In this document: one piece after another, positions 24,913 to 31,649 of the stretch
Numbering within the stretch: the first letter of the stretch is position 1
How the letters are laid out: every line of letters starts with the position of its first letter
Assembly: GCA_947623875.1 (NCBI GenBank)
Contig: CANQII010000007.1
Span: forward strand, 1-37,135
Origin: an uncultured Oscillospiraceae bacterium
GTDB lineage: Bacteria; Bacillota; Clostridia; Oscillospirales; Oscillospiraceae
Length of the DNA: 37,135 nt
Reading direction: 5' to 3'
The notes under the pieces: generated by a model
Databases searched by the model: none
Told to the model about the DNA's origin: nothing
What the model saw: only the letters and a program-made list of their open reading frames with translations
Translations under genes and position numbers: made by a program

Positions 24913-26329
24913 TAGACAGGTCATGACAGCAGTTAAGAAAGATCCCAGCCAATGGTCTAAAAATGAGAGAGAAATCATGGATGAAATTCGGAATACCCTT
25001 CCGAATATGAATCCTAAATACAAGATGCCGACAGCAGACGGCTTCTTCCTTAACTACAGTTTTCTCAACGAGCTCATGCTGTATAGCCGGAATCCTGATT
25101 ACATTGCAACAGGGTTCCCTAGACAAGCAGCACAGCAGGCAATCAAGGAAGTAGTCCGTACCATGAAAGGCTTTTACGCTTCTCAACGGGAATACAAAAA
25201 AGAACCTGGAAAGTTCAATGGTCGTCCTAAACTGCCGCACTATCTAAAAAAGGGCGGTGAACACACTACAACCTTCACAAACCAGGACTGTGTAATCTAC
25301 AAGAATGATGATGGCACCAGCTATGCCAAACTGCCCAAGACCAATTTGCGTTGTGAACTTGGAACATTGCCGGAAGGTCTGAAGCTGAAGCAGGTGACCA
25401 TTAAGCCCTATCACAATATCTTTATCATGTCTTTCACCTTCGACTCTGCCAACGACATCTTTGCTCCTGTTTCTGAAGAACCGCAGCGGATCTGCGCCAT
25501 TGATATTGGTGTTGAGAATATCGTAACTATGACAAACAATGTCGGGGCTGGTCCCCTCATTGTTAAGGGCGGTGTAATCAAGAGCCAAAATCAGCTGTAC
25601 AACAAGAAGATGGCGAAGATCAAGAGCGAACAGACCAAAGGCACCAACAAGAAGTTTGTTTCGACTCCAGAGTCGGACAAGCTCTGCGTTAAGCGGAAGA
25701 ACCAGATGACGGACTTCATGCGGAAGACGGGAAAGCTGGTCATTACAACCTGCCAGGAGCATCAGATCGATACTATTGTCATCGGACATAACGATGGCTG
25801 GAAGCAGGAAGCCAACACCGGGAAGAAGAATAACCAGGAATTTGTACAGATCCCATTTGACCAGCTGATCCATACCATTACATATCTGGCGGAACGCCAG
25901 GGAATCCGCGTCATTGAGCGGGAGGAGAGTTATACTTCCAAAGCCTCTTTCCTGGATGGAGATCCGATCCCGACCTATGGTGATAAGGATATTCCTAAGT
26001 TCTCCGGTAAACGTGGCCCTACGATGTACCATGGGCACAAGAAGACACTGAAGAAGGACGGAAGTGGAAGCCCTGAGTATCGCGGTTTGTACAGAACCAA
26101 GAATGGTACTGTCATCAATTCCGATGTAAACGGCAGTGCCAACATCGGACGGAAGGCTTTTCCTGAACTGTTCACCGTAGAGAGTGTGAAGCTAACCGAT
26201 CCGACCATCATTCGGCATCCAGATTACGAGAACCGGAAGATCTTGCATGCCATACAACTTGCCTCACCAAGAGAGCCTAGCATGGCTGCTGCAAAACGCT
26301 CCGCCAGGAGAGCGCAAAAGTGCAAGTAA

Positions 26330-26741: not shown

Positions 26742-28577
26742 CTAGCAGCAAGAAGTTTTGGTGTCTAGCAATACCTTGCAGTTATCCCTGTAGCAGGCAA
26801 TGCCATAGCGCAATACTTTGGTGGCGCCATCGCGGAAAAACGCATCGGTATAGCGTTTTTCCTCAATCTGATGCAACGCTTCCTGTGCACCGGCTTCCAA
26901 ATCCTTGCTATCGAATTTCATCTCAATCACGACTGCAAGTTTCTTCTTGCAGAAAAACCCGAGATCGCAATATCCATCCCCAGACTGAATGTTGGAACGA
27001 ACTTTCCATTTGCTGTACAATAGGCCGAGGACTGTCCCGTGATAGAAATACTCTTTCTGCTGGTTTTGCGCAGACATATCTCTCGAGTTCATAACGTCAT
27101 GGAGGATTATTCTAAGGCGTTGCTCGACAGTATCGGGATCTCCCGAAGGAAAAGCAGCACAGAACTCAGATATTACGGTCGGGTTCGTATGGAAGGCAGT
27201 GTTTACCCACTGACTCAGCAGTTTGCCGAACAGTTGTCTGACTTCCCCGTTTGGGACTTTGAGTTCACATAGCTTTCCGCTATCAGCCGAGAAAGGATCG
27301 TCCTCGTCTACTTTCTCATCCTCATCCTCATCCGCATTCTCGTTTTCGTCCTCGATTTTGCTGCTTGCAATATCGCTCGCGATATGAACGTCGGCATCAT
27401 CTACATAGCTTTCAATCGTCAGGTATCCAGTGGTAACCAAGAGACTCCAGATGTTCTCTCCAAGTTCATTCAGTTCGCGATAAGTCAGTGCATTGGATAC
27501 GGTTTTTTGTATGGTCCCGCCTGCGAGAAGATGAATATAGTCTTTCTGGATGGAGACAGTGCTCGCTTGCAGCACGCGGATTAAAATGTCATTGTCGCTC
27601 GTGTCAGCCCAATAGTTTACGGGCGTGATGGACCGACCTTTTCTGCACTTGCCAACATATTTTATGATATCCCAGGGGCTATAAACATGCTCATTCCCAA
27701 AGCAGTAGCCGTCATACCATGCTCTTGCAGTATCAAGCACATTAGGAACGGAATAATACGCTAAAAGGTCCTTGACTTCCTCTTCAGTGAAGCCAAAATA
27801 CTCTGTAGAGAAGTTGTCCTCAAATCCCCACACTGAGATATTGTTCGTTCCAGTGAAAATGCTCTCTTTTGAAATGCGGAGGCACCCGGTGATCACCGAG
27901 AGCTTCAAGAATATATTCTCTTTCAGCAGGCTTTCAAACATGTCTTTTATTAAATCAACCATGTCGTCATAAAACCCGCCAAGGTAGGCTTTGTTGAGAG
28001 GGACACCATATTCGTCTATGAGCACTACGACATTTTTGCCGTAATGATCATGTAAAATTCTACAGATAGTGAACGGCGCGTTTACCAACAAAGCCTCGAA
28101 ATCCTCTGTTTTTTCGGGATAGTTATTTACGTTTAACAGCGCCATATAGGATTCCAGCAGTGCTTTGTCTTGGGGATCAATATCCTTTTCAGCGAGAAGA
28201 GGACGGAAGCTGACTGCGAGATTGCCGATTTTGGTAGCCAATGTCGTGAGTGCACCCCGGTAAGTTGTTGTATTAAAACCGGAGAGACTAAGCAGCATAA
28301 CTGGATATTGCCCCATATAGTTATCACAGAGTTCTTTTTCGTTCAGTATAGCGAGACCATCAAAAAGACTGCGTTCTGCCCCCAGAACAAAGAAGTTGCG
28401 CAGCATGTCGAGCATGAGGGACTTGCCGAATCTGCGGGGACGCGTAATGAGATTTACAGTGTGATTAGCATCCAGAAGTTCCTTGATAATCATGGTCTTA
28501 TCGACATAGTAATTGCCCTCTGAGATCAGGGTGGAAAAGTATTGTGTGCCTGCCTTCAGGTTTTTTTGCTTTTCCAT
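26742..28577 (-). CDS. AAA-ATPase-like / PD-(D/E)XK nuclease-fold protein
   Basis: 611 residues. The AAA-ATPase-like domain (PF09820 type) has P-loop variant RPRRFGKS (46-53) and Walker B VVVLIDEYGVPL (~183-194). The C-terminal DUF1703-type nuclease fold has GDGYCDLGFF (Asp538) and VVIEMKF (Glu552, Lys554). A highly acidic linker (ENENADEDEDEKVDEDD) separates the halves. These proteins are abundant in gut bacteria, often in many copies; no activity is firmly assigned, and roles in DNA mobility or defence are guesses. Start at 28577 with AAAGGAGG 7 bases upstream. It is a single-gene unit with its own promoter and terminator. Confidence 0.9.
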   Translation of the reverse strand: MEKQKNLKAGTQYFSTLISEGNYYVDKTMIIKELLDANHTVNLITRPRRFGKSLMLDMLRNFFVLGAERSLFDGLAILNEKELCDNYMGQYPVMLLSLSGFNTTTYRGALTTLATKIGNLAVSFRPLLAEKDIDPQDKALLESYMALLNVNNYPEKTEDFEALLVNAPFTICRILHDHYGKNVVVLIDEYGVPLNKAYLGGFYDDMVDLIKDMFESLLKENIFLKLSVITGCLRISKESIFTGTNNISVWGFEDNFSTEYFGFTEEEVKDLLAYYSVPNVLDTARAWYDGYCFGNEHVYSPWDIIKYVGKCRKGRSITPVNYWADTSDNDILIRVLQASTVSIQKDYIHLLAGGTIQKTVSNALTYRELNELGENIWSLLVTTGYLTIESYVDDADVHIASDIASSKIEDENENADEDEDEKVDEDDPFSADSGKLCELKVPNGEVRQLFGKLLSQWVNTAFHTNPTVISEFCAAFPSGDPDTVEQRLRIILHDVMNSRDMSAQNQQKEYFYHGTVLGLLYSKWKVRSNIQSGDGYCDLGFFCKKKLAVVIEMKFDSKDLEAGAQEALHQIEEKRYTDAFFRDGATKVLRYGIACYRDNCKVLLDTKTSCC

Positions 28578-28614
28578 GACGCGCCCTCCTTTCAGTATCT
28601 TATTACCCACATTC

Positions 28615-28643
28615 ATTCTAGCACAAAGGCTGCTGGATGTCCA
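28615..28643 (-). promoter_or_regulatory. Promoter of the AAA-ATPase/PD-(D/E)XK gene
   Basis: On the minus strand, TGGACA (28638-28643), 17-base spacer, TAGAAT (28615-28620). Confidence 0.75.
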
Positions 28644-28754
28644 ACGCTTTTTCTGATGCACAGAGATTATTTTTGCCTTGCTGATACTTCTCCGGAAACT
28701 GACAAAAGACCGCAGAAAAGACATGCCTGATTGTCCGAAAAGTTGGCCATCCCG

Positions 28755-28784
28755 TTGACAGCCCCTCCCCATCTGCAGTACAAT
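28755..28784 (+). promoter_or_regulatory. Upstream promoter of the sulfur locus leader
   Basis: Perfect TTGACA (28755-28760), 18-base spacer, TACAAT (28779-28784). Its surroundings resemble the second promoter at 29011 (both TTGACAG, C-rich spacer, TA-AATC), suggesting duplication. Confidence 0.65.
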
Positions 28785-28792
28785 CCCACCCT

Positions 28793-28878
28793 GCAGGCGG
28801 GCCAGTATGCCGATCCTTGGGGATGCAAAATGGGGATCGGAATGACGGCAGGGGAGCAGAATCCCCGCAATTGCCTGC
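28793..28878 (+). ncRNA. Putative structured RNA, three-way junction, class unknown
   Basis: Just after the promoter at 28755. Closing stem GCAGGC (28793-28798) with GCCTGC (28873-28878); arm CCGATCC/GGATCGG (28810-28816/28834-28840); arm GGGGA/TCCCC (28851-28855/28862-28866). It matches no riboswitch I can name (not SAM-I, T-box or cobalamin). It could be a leader element of the sulfur locus or a separate small RNA. Positions 28879-29010 show nothing further. Confidence 0.35.
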
Positions 28879-29010
28879 TTTGAGACGGATTATCCAAATA
28901 CTGGCGCGAAATTGGCTGAAAACGCCTCAAAACGGAACATGTCTGTGCATAGTGGAGAAACTTTATCGAGTGAAAGCGTGAAATTTTGGACGTTCCCCGT
29001 GATTTTCCTG

Positions 29011-29039
29011 TTGACAGACCCACCTTCATGCGGTAGAAT
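29011..29039 (+). promoter_or_regulatory. Proximal promoter of the O-acetylhomoserine sulfhydrylase gene
   Basis: Perfect TTGACA (29011-29016), 17-base spacer, TAGAAT (29034-29039). Confidence 0.8.
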
Positions 29040-29046
29040 CAAAACC

Positions 29047-29063
29047 AACCTACCAAGTAGGTT
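29047..29063 (+). promoter_or_regulatory. Inverted-repeat operator at the transcription start
   Basis: AACCTAC-CAA-GTAGGTT, perfect 7-bp arms, centred about 16 bases after the -10, where bound protein would block transcription. The Rrf2 regulator at 31227 is the obvious candidate. Confidence 0.65.
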
Positions 29064-29114
29064 AATGGAGGAAGCCGATTCCGGCTCCTAGCCCCGTGAA
29101 GGCAGGTATCCCTG

Positions 29115-29234
29115 ATGAAGAACTACTTTGAGACGCTTGTGCGGCAGAATTACCGTTTCGGACGAATGTGCTGTTGGCTCTGCTCTACCCATACCCCAGC
29201 CCCATCAACCAACAACACAAACAACGAAAGGTGA
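29115..29234 (+). CDS. 39-residue leader peptide with Cys cluster
   Basis: ATG at 29115, TGA at 29232-29234. It begins MKNYFETLVRQNYRFGR and continues MCCWLCSTHTP; three Cys codons fall at 29169-29174 and 29181-29183 next to a single Trp. The stop codon lies inside AAAGGTGA, the ribosome site of the sulfhydrylase gene, so ribosomes that finish or stall on the leader would change access to that site. Cysteine-responsive leader peptides are known upstream of sulfur genes in actinobacteria; this would be an analogous case. Its own ribosome site is weak (CAGG 8 bases upstream). Confidence 0.6.
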   Translation: MKNYFETLVRQNYRFGRMCCWLCSTHTPAPSTNNTNNER

Positions 29235-29239
29235 TTATC

Positions 29240-30529
29240 ATGTCAAAATACAAGTTTGAAACCCTGCAGCTCCATGTGGGCCAGGAGAACCCCGATCCCG
29301 CCACCGACGCCCGTGCGGTGCCCATCTACGCCACTACCTCCTATGTGTTCCACAACTGCGAGCACGCCGCCGCCCGCTTCGGCCTTGCCGACGCCGGCAA
29401 CATCTACGGCCGTCTCACTAACTCCACCCAGGACGTTCTGGAGCAGCGGGTGGCCGCTCTGGAAGGCGGTGTAGGTGCCCTGGCTGTGGCCTCTGGCGCA
29501 GCTGCCATCTCCTATGTGCTGGAGGCACTGGGCGCGAACGGCGGACACTTTGTCTCCCAGAAGACCATCTACGGCGGCAGCTACAACCTGCTGGCCCACA
29601 CCTTGCCGGGCTTTGGCATCACCGCCTCCTTCGTGAACATCCACGATCTCGCCGAGGTAGAGGCCGCCATCCAGGAGAACACCCGGGCCATCTACATCGA
29701 GACCCTGGGCAACCCCAACAGCGACATCCCGGACATCGACGCCTTGGCCGAGCTGGCCCACAAGTACGGCCTGCCCCTGGTAGTGGACAACACCTTCGGC
29801 ACGCCGTATCTGATCCGGCCCATCGAGCACGGCGCGGACATCGTGGTGCACTCCGCCACCAAGTTCCTGGGCGGCCACGGTACCACCCTGGGCGGCATCA
29901 TCGTGGACTCCGGCAACTTTGACTGGGCTGCCAGCGGCAAGTATCCCGCCATCGCAGAACCCAACCCCAGCTATCACGGGATCTCCTTTGTGAAAGCCGT
30001 GGGCCCCGCTGCCTTTGTGACCTACATCCGTGCCGTCATCCTGCGGGACACCGGCGCCACCATCTCTCCCTTCGCCGCCTTCCTGCTCCTGCAGGGCATC
30101 GAGACTCTGTCTCTCCGTCTGGAGCGGCACGCAGAGAACACCGCCAAGGTGGTGGATTTCCTGGTGAAGCATCCTCTGGTGGAGCATGTGAACCACCCGT
30201 CTCTGCCGGATCACCCGGATCACGCCCTCTATGAGAAATACTTCCCCAACGGCGGCGGCTCTATCTTCACCTTCGAGATCAAGGGCGGGGTGAAGGAGGC
30301 ACACACCTTCATAGACAACCTGAAGATCTTCTCTCTGCTGGCCAACGTGGCAGATGTGAAGAGCCTGGTGATCCACCCGGCCACCACTACCCATAGCCAG
30401 CTGAACGAAGAGGAGCTGGCGGACCAGGGAATCAAACCCAACACGATCCGCCTCTCCATCGGCACCGAGCATATCGACGACATCCTGGCAGACCTGCAGG
30501 CCGGTTTTGACGCCGTCCAGCAAGCCTGA
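29240..30529 (+). CDS. metY: O-acetylhomoserine aminocarboxypropyltransferase (sulfhydrylase)
   Basis: 429 residues, PLP-dependent Cys/Met metabolism family. It makes homocysteine from O-acetylhomoserine and sulfide (or methionine with methanethiol) in the cytoplasm. Motifs: YATTSYVFHNCEHAAARF, IYGRLTNSTQDVLEQR, ETLGNPNSDIPD, VVDNTFGTP and the PLP lysine in HSATKFLGGHGT (Lys208). The length fits MetY/CysD proteins. The ATG at 29240 follows AAAGGTGA by 6 bases; an upstream in-frame start at 29168 falls within the leader ORF and has no ribosome site. It is regulated by the leader described above. Confidence 0.93.
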   Translation: MSKYKFETLQLHVGQENPDPATDARAVPIYATTSYVFHNCEHAAARFGLADAGNIYGRLTNSTQDVLEQRVAALEGGVGALAVASGAAAISYVLEALGANGGHFVSQKTIYGGSYNLLAHTLPGFGITASFVNIHDLAEVEAAIQENTRAIYIETLGNPNSDIPDIDALAELAHKYGLPLVVDNTFGTPYLIRPIEHGADIVVHSATKFLGGHGTTLGGIIVDSGNFDWAASGKYPAIAEPNPSYHGISFVKAVGPAAFVTYIRAVILRDTGATISPFAAFLLLQGIETLSLRLERHAENTAKVVDFLVKHPLVEHVNHPSLPDHPDHALYEKYFPNGGGSIFTFEIKGGVKEAHTFIDNLKIFSLLANVADVKSLVIHPATTTHSQLNEEELADQGIKPNTIRLSIGTEHIDDILADLQAGFDAVQQA

Positions 30530-30628: not shown

Positions 30629-31162
30629 TTGTCCCAGCAAAACACCCCCAAGGCCAAGTACACCGCATATTGGGTGTGCAGTACGGCCGTCTTCATGGCC
30701 CTGAACATCGCCATGAGTTCTTTTGGCATCCCCGTCCCTGGCGGGCACCTGTACCTCTGCGACGTGGTGATCGTAACGGCGTCCATTCTGCTGGATCCGC
30801 TGGCCGCCTTCGCCGTAGGTGGCATCGGTTCCTTCCTGGGAGACCTGCTGTTCTATCCCGCGCCCATGTTCGTGTCTCTCGTTACCCACGGGCTGCAGGC
30901 GGTGGTGATCTCCGTCTTCTCCCACCATGTGATGCAGAAGAAACCGGTGCTGGCCTCCACCATCGGGACCCTCATCGGCGCCGTGATCATGGTGGTGGGA
31001 TACACCCTGGGCAAGATCTATGTGTACAGCACCTTTGAGTACGCCATGCTCAAGCTGCCCTATGAGATCGCCCAGGCGGCCATCGGCGTTGCAGGCGGCC
31101 TGCTTCTCTGCTGGAAGGCCGGCTTTGTAAAGCTGTATCAGAAGCTGGCAAAGAAGCAGTGA
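30629..31162 (+). CDS. ECF transporter substrate-binding (S) component
   Basis: 177 residues with five to six hydrophobic helices and the N-terminal amphipathic part usual in ECF S proteins. STAVFMALNIAMSSFGIPVP and PLAAFAVGGIGSFLGDLLFY match the family pattern. It captures a vitamin or similar nutrient and works with a shared ECF ATPase/T-protein module not in this window. The start is TTG at 30629, supported by AAAAAGGAG 8 bases upstream; no in-frame ATG is nearby. Position between metY and an Rrf2 gene suggests a sulfur-linked substrate, as a guess only. Confidence 0.85.
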   Translation: MSQQNTPKAKYTAYWVCSTAVFMALNIAMSSFGIPVPGGHLYLCDVVIVTASILLDPLAAFAVGGIGSFLGDLLFYPAPMFVSLVTHGLQAVVISVFSHHVMQKKPVLASTIGTLIGAVIMVVGYTLGKIYVYSTFEYAMLKLPYEIAQAAIGVAGGLLLCWKAGFVKLYQKLAKKQ

Positions 31163-31226: not shown

Positions 31227-31649
31227 ATGCTGATATCCACAAGAGGACGCTACGCCCTCCGGGTCCTGGCGGACCTGGCAGAGCACGCCGGGAACGGCTA
31301 TGTGCCCATGAAGGAGATCGCAGAGCGCCAGGGGATCTCCCTGAAGTACCTAGAGCGGATCCTCCCCGTCCTTACGAAAAACGGGATCATTGAGGGCCTC
31401 CAGGGCAAGACAGGAGGATATCGTTTGCTGGTCCAGCCGGAGGAGTGCCGGGTAGGGGACGTGCTCCGGCTCACCGAGGGTGACCTGGCCCCAGTGGCAT
31501 GTCTGGAGTGCGGTGCGAAACCCTGTGAGCGGGCCTCCATCTGCTGTACCCTCCCCATGTGGACCGAGTTCCACCAGCTCATCAACACCTTTTTAGACAG
31601 CAAGACCTTGGCAGACATTGTCCGGGGAGATCCGGCCAACGCATTATAA
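31227..31649 (+). CDS. Rrf2 family transcriptional regulator with Cys-rich C-terminus
   Basis: 140 residues. The Rrf2 winged helix starts MLISTRGRYALRVLADLAEH and includes ISLKYLERILPVL and GKTGGYRL. The C-terminal part holds five Cys in CLECGAKPCERASICC (residues 92-107), near the positions where IscR binds an Fe-S cluster. Relatives include CymR, the cysteine-metabolism repressor of Firmicutes. The ATG at 31227 has GAGGTGG 8 bases upstream; a GTG at 31215 is possible but less likely. It probably binds the operator at 29047-29063 and senses cysteine status or an Fe-S cluster. Confidence 0.9.
   Translation: MLISTRGRYALRVLADLAEHAGNGYVPMKEIAERQGISLKYLERILPVLTKNGIIEGLQGKTGGYRLLVQPEECRVGDVLRLTEGDLAPVACLECGAKPCERASICCTLPMWTEFHQLINTFLDSKTLADIVRGDPANAL

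Follow-up and report, generated by a model that had tools for sequence, protein, structure and literature searches.

An open reading frame (ORF) of 39 codons, three of them for cysteine, ends immediately upstream of metY in the genome of an uncultured Oscillospiraceae bacterium and raises the question of whether it encodes a regulatory leader peptide and, if so, to which signal it would respond. The original prediction described a cysteine leader peptide. We find that the ORF belongs to a conserved leader family whose hallmark is not a run of Cys codons. Instead, three consecutive in-frame codons define it: CGA (Arg), AUG (Met) and UGY (Cys) or UGA (stop).

Organization of the metY locus

The window, that is, the entire stretch of 37,135 nucleotides that was analyzed, contains the following features around metY (SD, Shine-Dalgarno).

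29011-29039, + strand: sigma-70-type promoter-like site, TTGACA-17-TAGAAT (11 of 12 positions match)
29047-29063, no strand assigned: inverted repeat AACCTAC-CAA-GTAGGTT spanning the expected start of transcription, candidate Rrf2 operator
29099-29106, + strand: SD-like sequence AAGGCAGG of the leader ORF
29115-29234, + strand: leader ORF, ATG start, 39 amino acids (MKNYFETLVRQNYRFGRMCCWLCSTHTPAPSTNNTNNER)
29149-29160, + strand: anti-SD segment within the leader, codons 12-16 (predicted pairing)
29163-29171, + strand: core codons 17-19, CGA ATG TGC (Arg-Met-Cys); CGA in 53 of 53 matches with a free Arg codon, CGA-ATG before 17 of 24 related metY genes
29167-29177, + strand: 5' strand of the predicted upper stem, TGTG.TGTTGG (core and first Cys codons)
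29169-29183, + strand: Cys stretch, regulatory tail; codons 19 (TGC, 29169-29171), 20 (TGT, 29172-29174) and 23 (TGC, 29181-29183)
29209-29219, + strand: 3' strand of the predicted upper stem, CCAACA.CACA
29225-29235, + strand: metY SD region CGAAAGGTGAT, predicted partner of 29149-29160
29232-29234, + strand: leader stop TGA, inside AAAGGTGA (29227-29234), 5 nt before the metY ATG at 29240
29240-30529, + strand: metY, O-acetylhomoserine/O-acetylserine sulfhydrylase (TIGR01326, E 8.8e-186; PF01053), the putative regulated gene
30629-31162, + strand: ECF-type transporter S component (PF07155), downstream of metY on the same strand
31230-31649, + strand: Rrf2-family regulator (TIGR00738, PF02082)

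Both the 39-codon ORF with its three Cys codons and the identity of metY as a sulfhydrylase gene, as originally proposed, were confirmed. The promoter-like site, from which the transcription start is predicted, ends 75 nt 5' of the leader ATG, with the SD-like site in between. In the leader family described below, 110 of 173 leaders have TTGACA in the 150 nt that precede them, and inverted repeats similar to that in the window (at most two mismatches) precede 44 of the 173, compared to 3 of 173 in a single mononucleotide shuffle. This lends some support to the mention of an Rrf2 operator in the original prediction, with an Rrf2 protein as the putative ligand of the repeat. The ECF transporter component encoded between metY and the Rrf2-family gene could have a sulfur compound as its substrate.

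In the scan of the window, no Rfam model (T-box, S-box or other catalogued RNAs) matched at the gathering score, and no intrinsic terminator was found between the leader and metY (+ strand, 28700-29300). A second candidate structured element, at 28790-28960, was dismissed, given that it folds no better than shuffled sequences (z -0.58), as was a fusion of the leader and metY frames via GTG at 29168, given that a stop closes the same frame in one locus inspected by eye (L006). Farther upstream, the window encodes an IS605 OrfB/TnpB-type protein (24923-26329, + strand; PF01385, PF07282) and an AAA-ATPase-like protein with a PD-(D/E)XK domain (26745-28769, - strand; PF09820, PF08011), which adjoins the metY unit on the opposite strand. 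A further strong promoter-like site, TTGACA-18-TACAAT, is located at 28755-28784 (+ strand), about 250 nt 5' of the metY promoter.

A family of leader ORFs in Clostridia

A peptide search of 300 genomes of the same bacterial family yielded many weak matches, spread over 185 genomes at E <= 1. Among the best, several lie directly 5' of metY in other genera, where the first 18 leader codons recur; some matches fall on the complementary strand, as conservation at these sites extends to the DNA itself. Scanning genome contigs with a pattern retrieved at least 120 stretches; among the matches listed, the titles are mostly those of Clostridia, Oscillospiraceae, Ruminococcaceae, Lachnospiraceae and similar groups, and a few refer only to Bacillota, Firmicutes or Bacterium. 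Together with loci retrieved subsequently, these yielded a family set of 176 distinct leaders carrying N12-[FY]-R-[FY]-G-R and CGAATG, with the consensus M1, F5, L8, R10, N12, [FY]13, R14, [FY]15, G16, R17, M18 (derived from 117 of the 176 leaders).

In 165 of the 176 leaders, the start codon precedes Met18 by exactly 17 codons, and AGG, GGA or GAG, a loose criterion, occurs at SD distance before 162 of these 165. All six Arg codons are in use at R10 and R14 and all four Gly codons at G16, with the residues constant, which indicates that the peptide is under selection. Judged by these sequence features (start position, SD-like site and coding constraint), the family displays the translated short ORF with its own initiation site 5' of the target that is expected of an attenuator.

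An order-wide search in which any Arg codon was allowed found 53 matches, distributed over 50 of 394 genomes, and none for the reversed-pattern control; three genomes (G586, G548 and G533) carry two leaders each. Leaders are also found in scattered families of the class. In a phylum-wide sample, 4 of 398 genomes matched besides the genome of the window itself, with the start codon in place in none of the four; we take these four to be chance matches and see no credible case in the rest of the sample. The patterns are strict, so that all these range counts are lower bounds. A class-wide pattern with both the Arg and the Met codon free (73 rows) was set aside as yielding mostly chance matches, control matches being about as frequent by eye. 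Of these rows, 44 were examined (30 given as loci and 14 hand-picked in favor of CG ends): 12 have ATG in place, all as CGA-ATG, and in a GTG-start match with CGG (L248) a stop closes the frame before the motif. Because of the hand-picked rows, the order-wide search with a free Arg codon is the clean test of codon choice.

The CGA-AUG-UG core

In that order-wide search (Arg codon free, ATG fixed, 394 genomes), the R17 codon is CGA in 53 of 53 matches; CGA accounts for 2.6% (36/1400) of the Arg codons in the downstream genes. Most of the other loci were fetched with CGA fixed and therefore cannot be counted for R17. Among the tRNAs found in a near-complete relative (G401, 99% complete), those for Arg have the anticodons ACG, TCT, CCG and CCT, and the only one for Cys has GCA; no Arg tRNA with TCG is present, so that CGA must be decoded by the inosine tRNA via I-A wobble. 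CGA is one of the slowly read Arg codons of Salmonella, and earlier work cited in the same report indicates that the Cys tRNA reads NNC faster than NNU (PMC4046918). In yeast, inhibitory codon pairs with CGA in the first position are documented (PMC7829197).

At codon 19, the 176 leaders have TGT (61), TGA (53), TGC (43), TGG (5) and others (14), a distribution shaped by the contig pattern, which forced TG at this position for many leaders; in the 66 leaders fetched otherwise, the counts are TGA 21, TGC 18, TGT 12, TGG 1 and other 14. The third base of TGN at this codon is G in just 5 of 162 cases. Met18 is followed by a stop, Cys, Trp, Tyr, Arg, Gln or Ser. The trio points to methionine as well as cysteine.

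Cysteine codons and stop codons beyond Met18

A stop immediately follows Met18 in 56 of the 176 leaders (53 TGA, 3 TAA), so that Cys is optional. Among the 120 leaders that read on, 116 contain Cys and 79 contain two or more. From codon 20 onward (801 codons), there are 146 Cys codons in frame compared to 13 and 22 in frames +1 and +2, suggesting that the Cys codons of the tail are under selection. The TGT:TGC ratio is 115:31 in the tails and 13:67 in the downstream genes; within the tails, Cys comes next after 35 of the 41 CGA codons and after 6 of the 63 other Arg codons. These counts cover related sequences, so p-values overstate independence.

The original prediction, when checked against relatives, is supported with respect to the conserved reading frame, the regulatory character of the leader and the selection for Cys, but not with respect to Cys as the defining feature. 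Similarly, the position of the stop inside the metY ribosome-binding site is real in the window but is not conserved: of the 115 examined leaders that continue beyond Met18, only 11 terminate at most 12 nt before the gene start or run past it.

The tails end with TGA (65), TAA (50) or TAG (5). Compared with these, the stop directly after Met18 is biased toward UGA over UAA (Fisher p 1.4e-8, for related sequences), a bias in part built in because the contig pattern fixed TG; among the leaders fetched otherwise, the counts are TGA 21 and TAA 3. Simple release does not explain this preference (53 versus 3). Selenocysteine insertion or read-through at this UGA was rejected for want of a lasting in-frame coding signal downstream: Cys codons in frame versus the other two frames number 15 versus 5 and 6 in the first 6 codons and 18 versus 13 and 12 over 15 codons, and the three frames contain 49, 47 and 50 stops.

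The core upstream of related metY genes

We sought metY in 49 chosen genomes (64 metY-like rows) and examined the upstream regions of 30 genes, 24 with 58-83% and 6 with 44-49% identity. Sixteen of the 24 have CGAATGTG with an in-frame start upstream, followed by A, T or C in all 16; one more (L310) has CGAATGTAT. The background of the octamer is 14 occurrences in 467 kb over both strands, or approximately 0.01 per 340-nt stretch. This search retained the core only where it had an in-frame start; inspection of seven sequences by eye revealed no core lacking such a start, bar a chance CGAATGGGA in L312. The seven genes without the core include some that have a promoter close upstream or lie behind another gene, as judged by eye. 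The octamer is absent from the six examined paralogs of 44-49% identity (L333-L338), two of which have a chance CGAATG; these paralogs represent a second metY-like clade within the same order.

Some of the leaders at related metY genes, such as MQFYFTLLLRANFRNG-RM, are clearly kin to the main family, and several carry the core behind unrelated peptides, among them MKANIQRRYC-RM, MKYKKSLYARGLW-RMC, MIGSRSIRRAE-RMCRCC and MIERTVAALPVR-RMCC. Given that the core is kept behind unrelated peptides, the codon trio, not the peptide, is the common denominator.

Genes downstream of the leaders

A metY gene lies downstream of 137 of the 176 leaders (tblastn). Of the 39 without a metY match, five lack an ORF, mostly at contig ends; by eye, 23 precede NlpA/MetQ-type lipoproteins, and the others include MetN (ABC and NIL domains), four ABC permeases, two ThiF proteins and one LytTR protein. 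Among these 39, the genes that could be identified are mostly of the methionine-transport type. A Pfam scan of ten of these 39 includes four NlpA-type proteins, MetN, three permeases, ThiF and LytTR. The genes behind the trio are methionine-centered (metY, NlpA/MetQ type, MetN), and leaders that stop after Met18 likewise precede metY and NlpA/MetQ-type genes. In L114 and L213, a Cys-tailed leader is located about 200 nt 5' of a ThiF-family gene, possibly a sulfur-transfer target, and in L072 an NlpA/MetQ domain fused to a family-3 solute-binding domain is encoded behind the leader.

SAM riboswitches are present in 252 of the 394 genomes of the order, mostly one per genome, so that another methionine-related signal is available. 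Mutual exclusion of leader and SAM riboswitch was considered and dropped, as leader genomes such as G456, G518 and G543 possess one.

Predicted RNA pairing

In the predicted fold of the window, the metY SD (29225-29235) pairs with 29149-29160, and the core together with the first Cys codons pairs with the linker (29209-29219). The SD is predicted to be 97% paired. Its predicted unpaired fraction is 0.03 without a ribosome; a ribosome placed at codon 17 or at codon 18 increases it to 0.62-0.63 (0.63 at codon 18), and one at codon 19 to 0.52. For a stall at 29166-29183, this prediction supports the original proposal of altered access to metY. The overall fold is only slightly more stable than shuffled sequences (z -0.85), and the family mean is z -0.96 (n=134).

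For the family analysis, 8 of the 176 leaders have no downstream ORF; 148 of the other 168 have a spacing of at most 130 nt and an SD, and 138 were left after removal of near-duplicates. In these 138, a ribosome at codon 18 raises the mean predicted SD opening from 0.31 to 0.54, with a gain above 0.2 in 61; a ribosome at the start codon leaves it unchanged (0.31), and one at codon 9 yields 0.50, nearly the value for codon 18. The duplex between a leader and its own linker has a mean energy of -13.39 kcal/mol versus -11.39 for swapped partners (z -11.1; none of 2000 permutations as good), with z -2.5 for reversed leaders and z -0.8 for codons 1-9. A control stretch inside the downstream gene pairs equally strongly (-13.95; own versus swapped z -2.1), so that the fit to the own partner, not the strength, stands out. 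The own linker is better than the mean of the 15 linkers nearest in GC content in 62% of the cases (p 4e-5). Covariation beyond shuffles was detected only for codon 12.3/SD+4 and codon 13.2/SD+2 among twelve columns, several of which are invariable; Tyr13 occurs with GGT in 9 of 23 leaders compared to 15 of 115 for Phe13 (p 0.006). The pairing statistics, like the codon counts, are drawn from related sequences. A MAFFT alignment (A1, 57 sequences) misplaced the SD and was excluded from the covariation analysis.

Among the 15 folded leaders of related metY genes, about 10 have a strong SD before the start used (by eye). An SD opening gain above 0.15 is predicted in four (L317, L322, L323 and L331), and the SD is predicted to be already free (0.71-0.94) in L318, L319, L320 and L324. 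The structural half of an attenuator model appears weaker at these genes.

A model of translational attenuation and its alternatives

With moderate confidence, we propose that the leader is a translational attenuator for sulfur amino acids that responds to shortage of charged tRNA-Met or tRNA-Cys, sharpened by slow decoding of CGA. The leader would be translated from its own SD. With no ribosome at codons 17-20, codons 12-16 are predicted to sequester the metY SD by base-pairing, and the linker to anneal to the core and first Cys codons, which would result in poor translation of metY. When charged tRNA-Met or tRNA-Cys is scarce, the ribosome would stall with the slow CGA or the Met codon in the P site while the A site, at AUG or UGU/UGC, stays empty; it would then cover the anti-SD segment and free the metY SD. 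A CGA that immediately precedes the sulfur codons would heighten the sensitivity of the stall, as the codon statistics and the Salmonella and yeast work suggest. Under good supply, the stop codon or a short tail would clear the ribosome quickly. An Rrf2 repressor probably adds transcriptional control.

The strongest competitor, which we nevertheless consider unlikely, is nascent-peptide arrest of the TnaC/SpeFL kind, in which L-R-x-N-[FY]-R-[FY]-G-R-M would stall its own ribosome at Met18 on sensing methionine, cysteine, SAM or a similar compound, with the codon after Met irrelevant. The strict retention of residues through synonymous codons and the fixed length of 18 residues in the main family speak for arrest, and the varied codons after Met18 fit a stall that precedes any A-site ligand; however, residue identity cannot account for CGA as the lone Arg codon in 53 of 53 matches, CGA-AUG-UG persists behind unrelated peptides at some related metY genes, and the tail Cys codons would be left unexplained. 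These Cys codons are the domain of a plain cysteine attenuator, for which shortage of tRNA-Cys alone would matter: their in-frame enrichment, the choice of UGU, the CGA-UGU pairs and the three Cys codons in the window are all as such a device would have them. It is rendered improbable by the 56 of 176 leaders with no Cys codon after Met18, which also occur before metY and NlpA/MetQ-type genes.

The near-invariance of the octamer could instead mean that CGAAUGUG is recognized by an RNA-binding protein or a small RNA, or acts as a DNA or polymerase-pause element, with the ORF incidental, and a partial complement, CACATTYR, is found in 13 of 138 linkers versus 0.9 expected. The in-frame occurrence of the octamer is partly built into the searches, which kept copies with an in-frame start, but the avoidance of TGG at codon 19, the enrichment of Cys in the leader's frame only, the placement of tail CGA, too, before Cys codons and the SD-like sites 5' of the ORF make this reading very unlikely. 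Release factor RF2 is methylated on a Gln by PrmC and would be under-methylated when SAM is low. The UGA form of the leader might then gauge methionine through slow termination at AUG-UGA, the waiting ribosome freeing the SD; the excess of UGA over UAA after Met18 (53 versus 3), unlike at tail stops, agrees with such a scheme, but UGA is one base away from UGY, so that descent alone could produce the bias, and three leaders use UAA. We regard this as the least probable of the alternatives, a long shot.

By the measure of classical attenuators, the one Met codon of the proposed device makes for a thin sensor. Tentatively, and with less assurance than the attenuator itself, we suggest that inosine-decoded CGA 5' of Met or Cys acts as a codon-pair tripwire that lets one codon report sensitively on the supply of charged tRNA. 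Sulfur control in many families of Clostridia might then depend on the geometry of decoding and not on codon runs, riboswitches or nascent peptides, and methylation of the release factor may be the route by which the UGA form monitors methionine. If correct, this would explain how many gut Clostridia set the expression of methionine and cysteine genes, shaping sulfur use in the gut, and would provide a natural, evolution-tested case of a synonymous codon fixed, apparently for decoding (CGA in 53 of 53, out of six choices). Natural bacterial use of CGA-first inhibitory pairs would be directly testable.

Comparison with known leader systems

Judged by titles and the beginnings of abstracts, none of the publications retrieved is evidently on this leader family, and a non-exhaustive search with peptide and octamer strings found no peptide-string match among the papers listed. 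Work by Canestrari in 2020 reportedly describes polycysteine leader ORFs of mycobacteria. In one report, uORF pairing hides the SD and stalling unmasks it (PMC13236596), and candidate Cys leaders of Actinobacteria are described in another (PMC1262725). The present family shares with such leaders a short ORF with Cys codons 5' of sulfur genes, and differs from them in the SD-led ORF, the CGA-AUG core, the optional Cys, the methionine targets and the occurrence in Clostridia. Of the two polycysteine hallmarks, a Cys run near the stop is replaced by three Cys codons in the window, and 56 of 176 members stop before any tail Cys; instead of a leaderless start, there is a predicted promoter-like site 75 nt upstream and an SD-like site.

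In the translational attenuators ErmCL and ErmBL, a ribosome stalled on the leader by antibiotic and peptide frees the SD of the next gene. The same release of the next gene's SD by a stalled leader ribosome is proposed here, but no drug is involved, and the stall is attributed to codons and charged tRNA. TnaC and SpeFL are arrest peptides; as in these, the short peptide is conserved, and here it is frequently closed by a UGA where the stall is presumed to occur. In contrast to them, the core outlives changes of the upstream peptide and one synonymous Arg codon is fixed: residues conserved in the manner of TnaC are kept in the main family and lost in several CGA-AUG-UG leaders of related metY genes.

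The his, trp and leu leaders of enterobacteria are attenuators as well. In the his leader, regulatory and slow codons set the position of the ribosome (PMC4046918, PMC11805395). Regulatory and slow codons would position the ribosome in the present leaders, too, but with no terminator in the window, with one Met codon and CGA in place of a codon run, and with the SD as the target.
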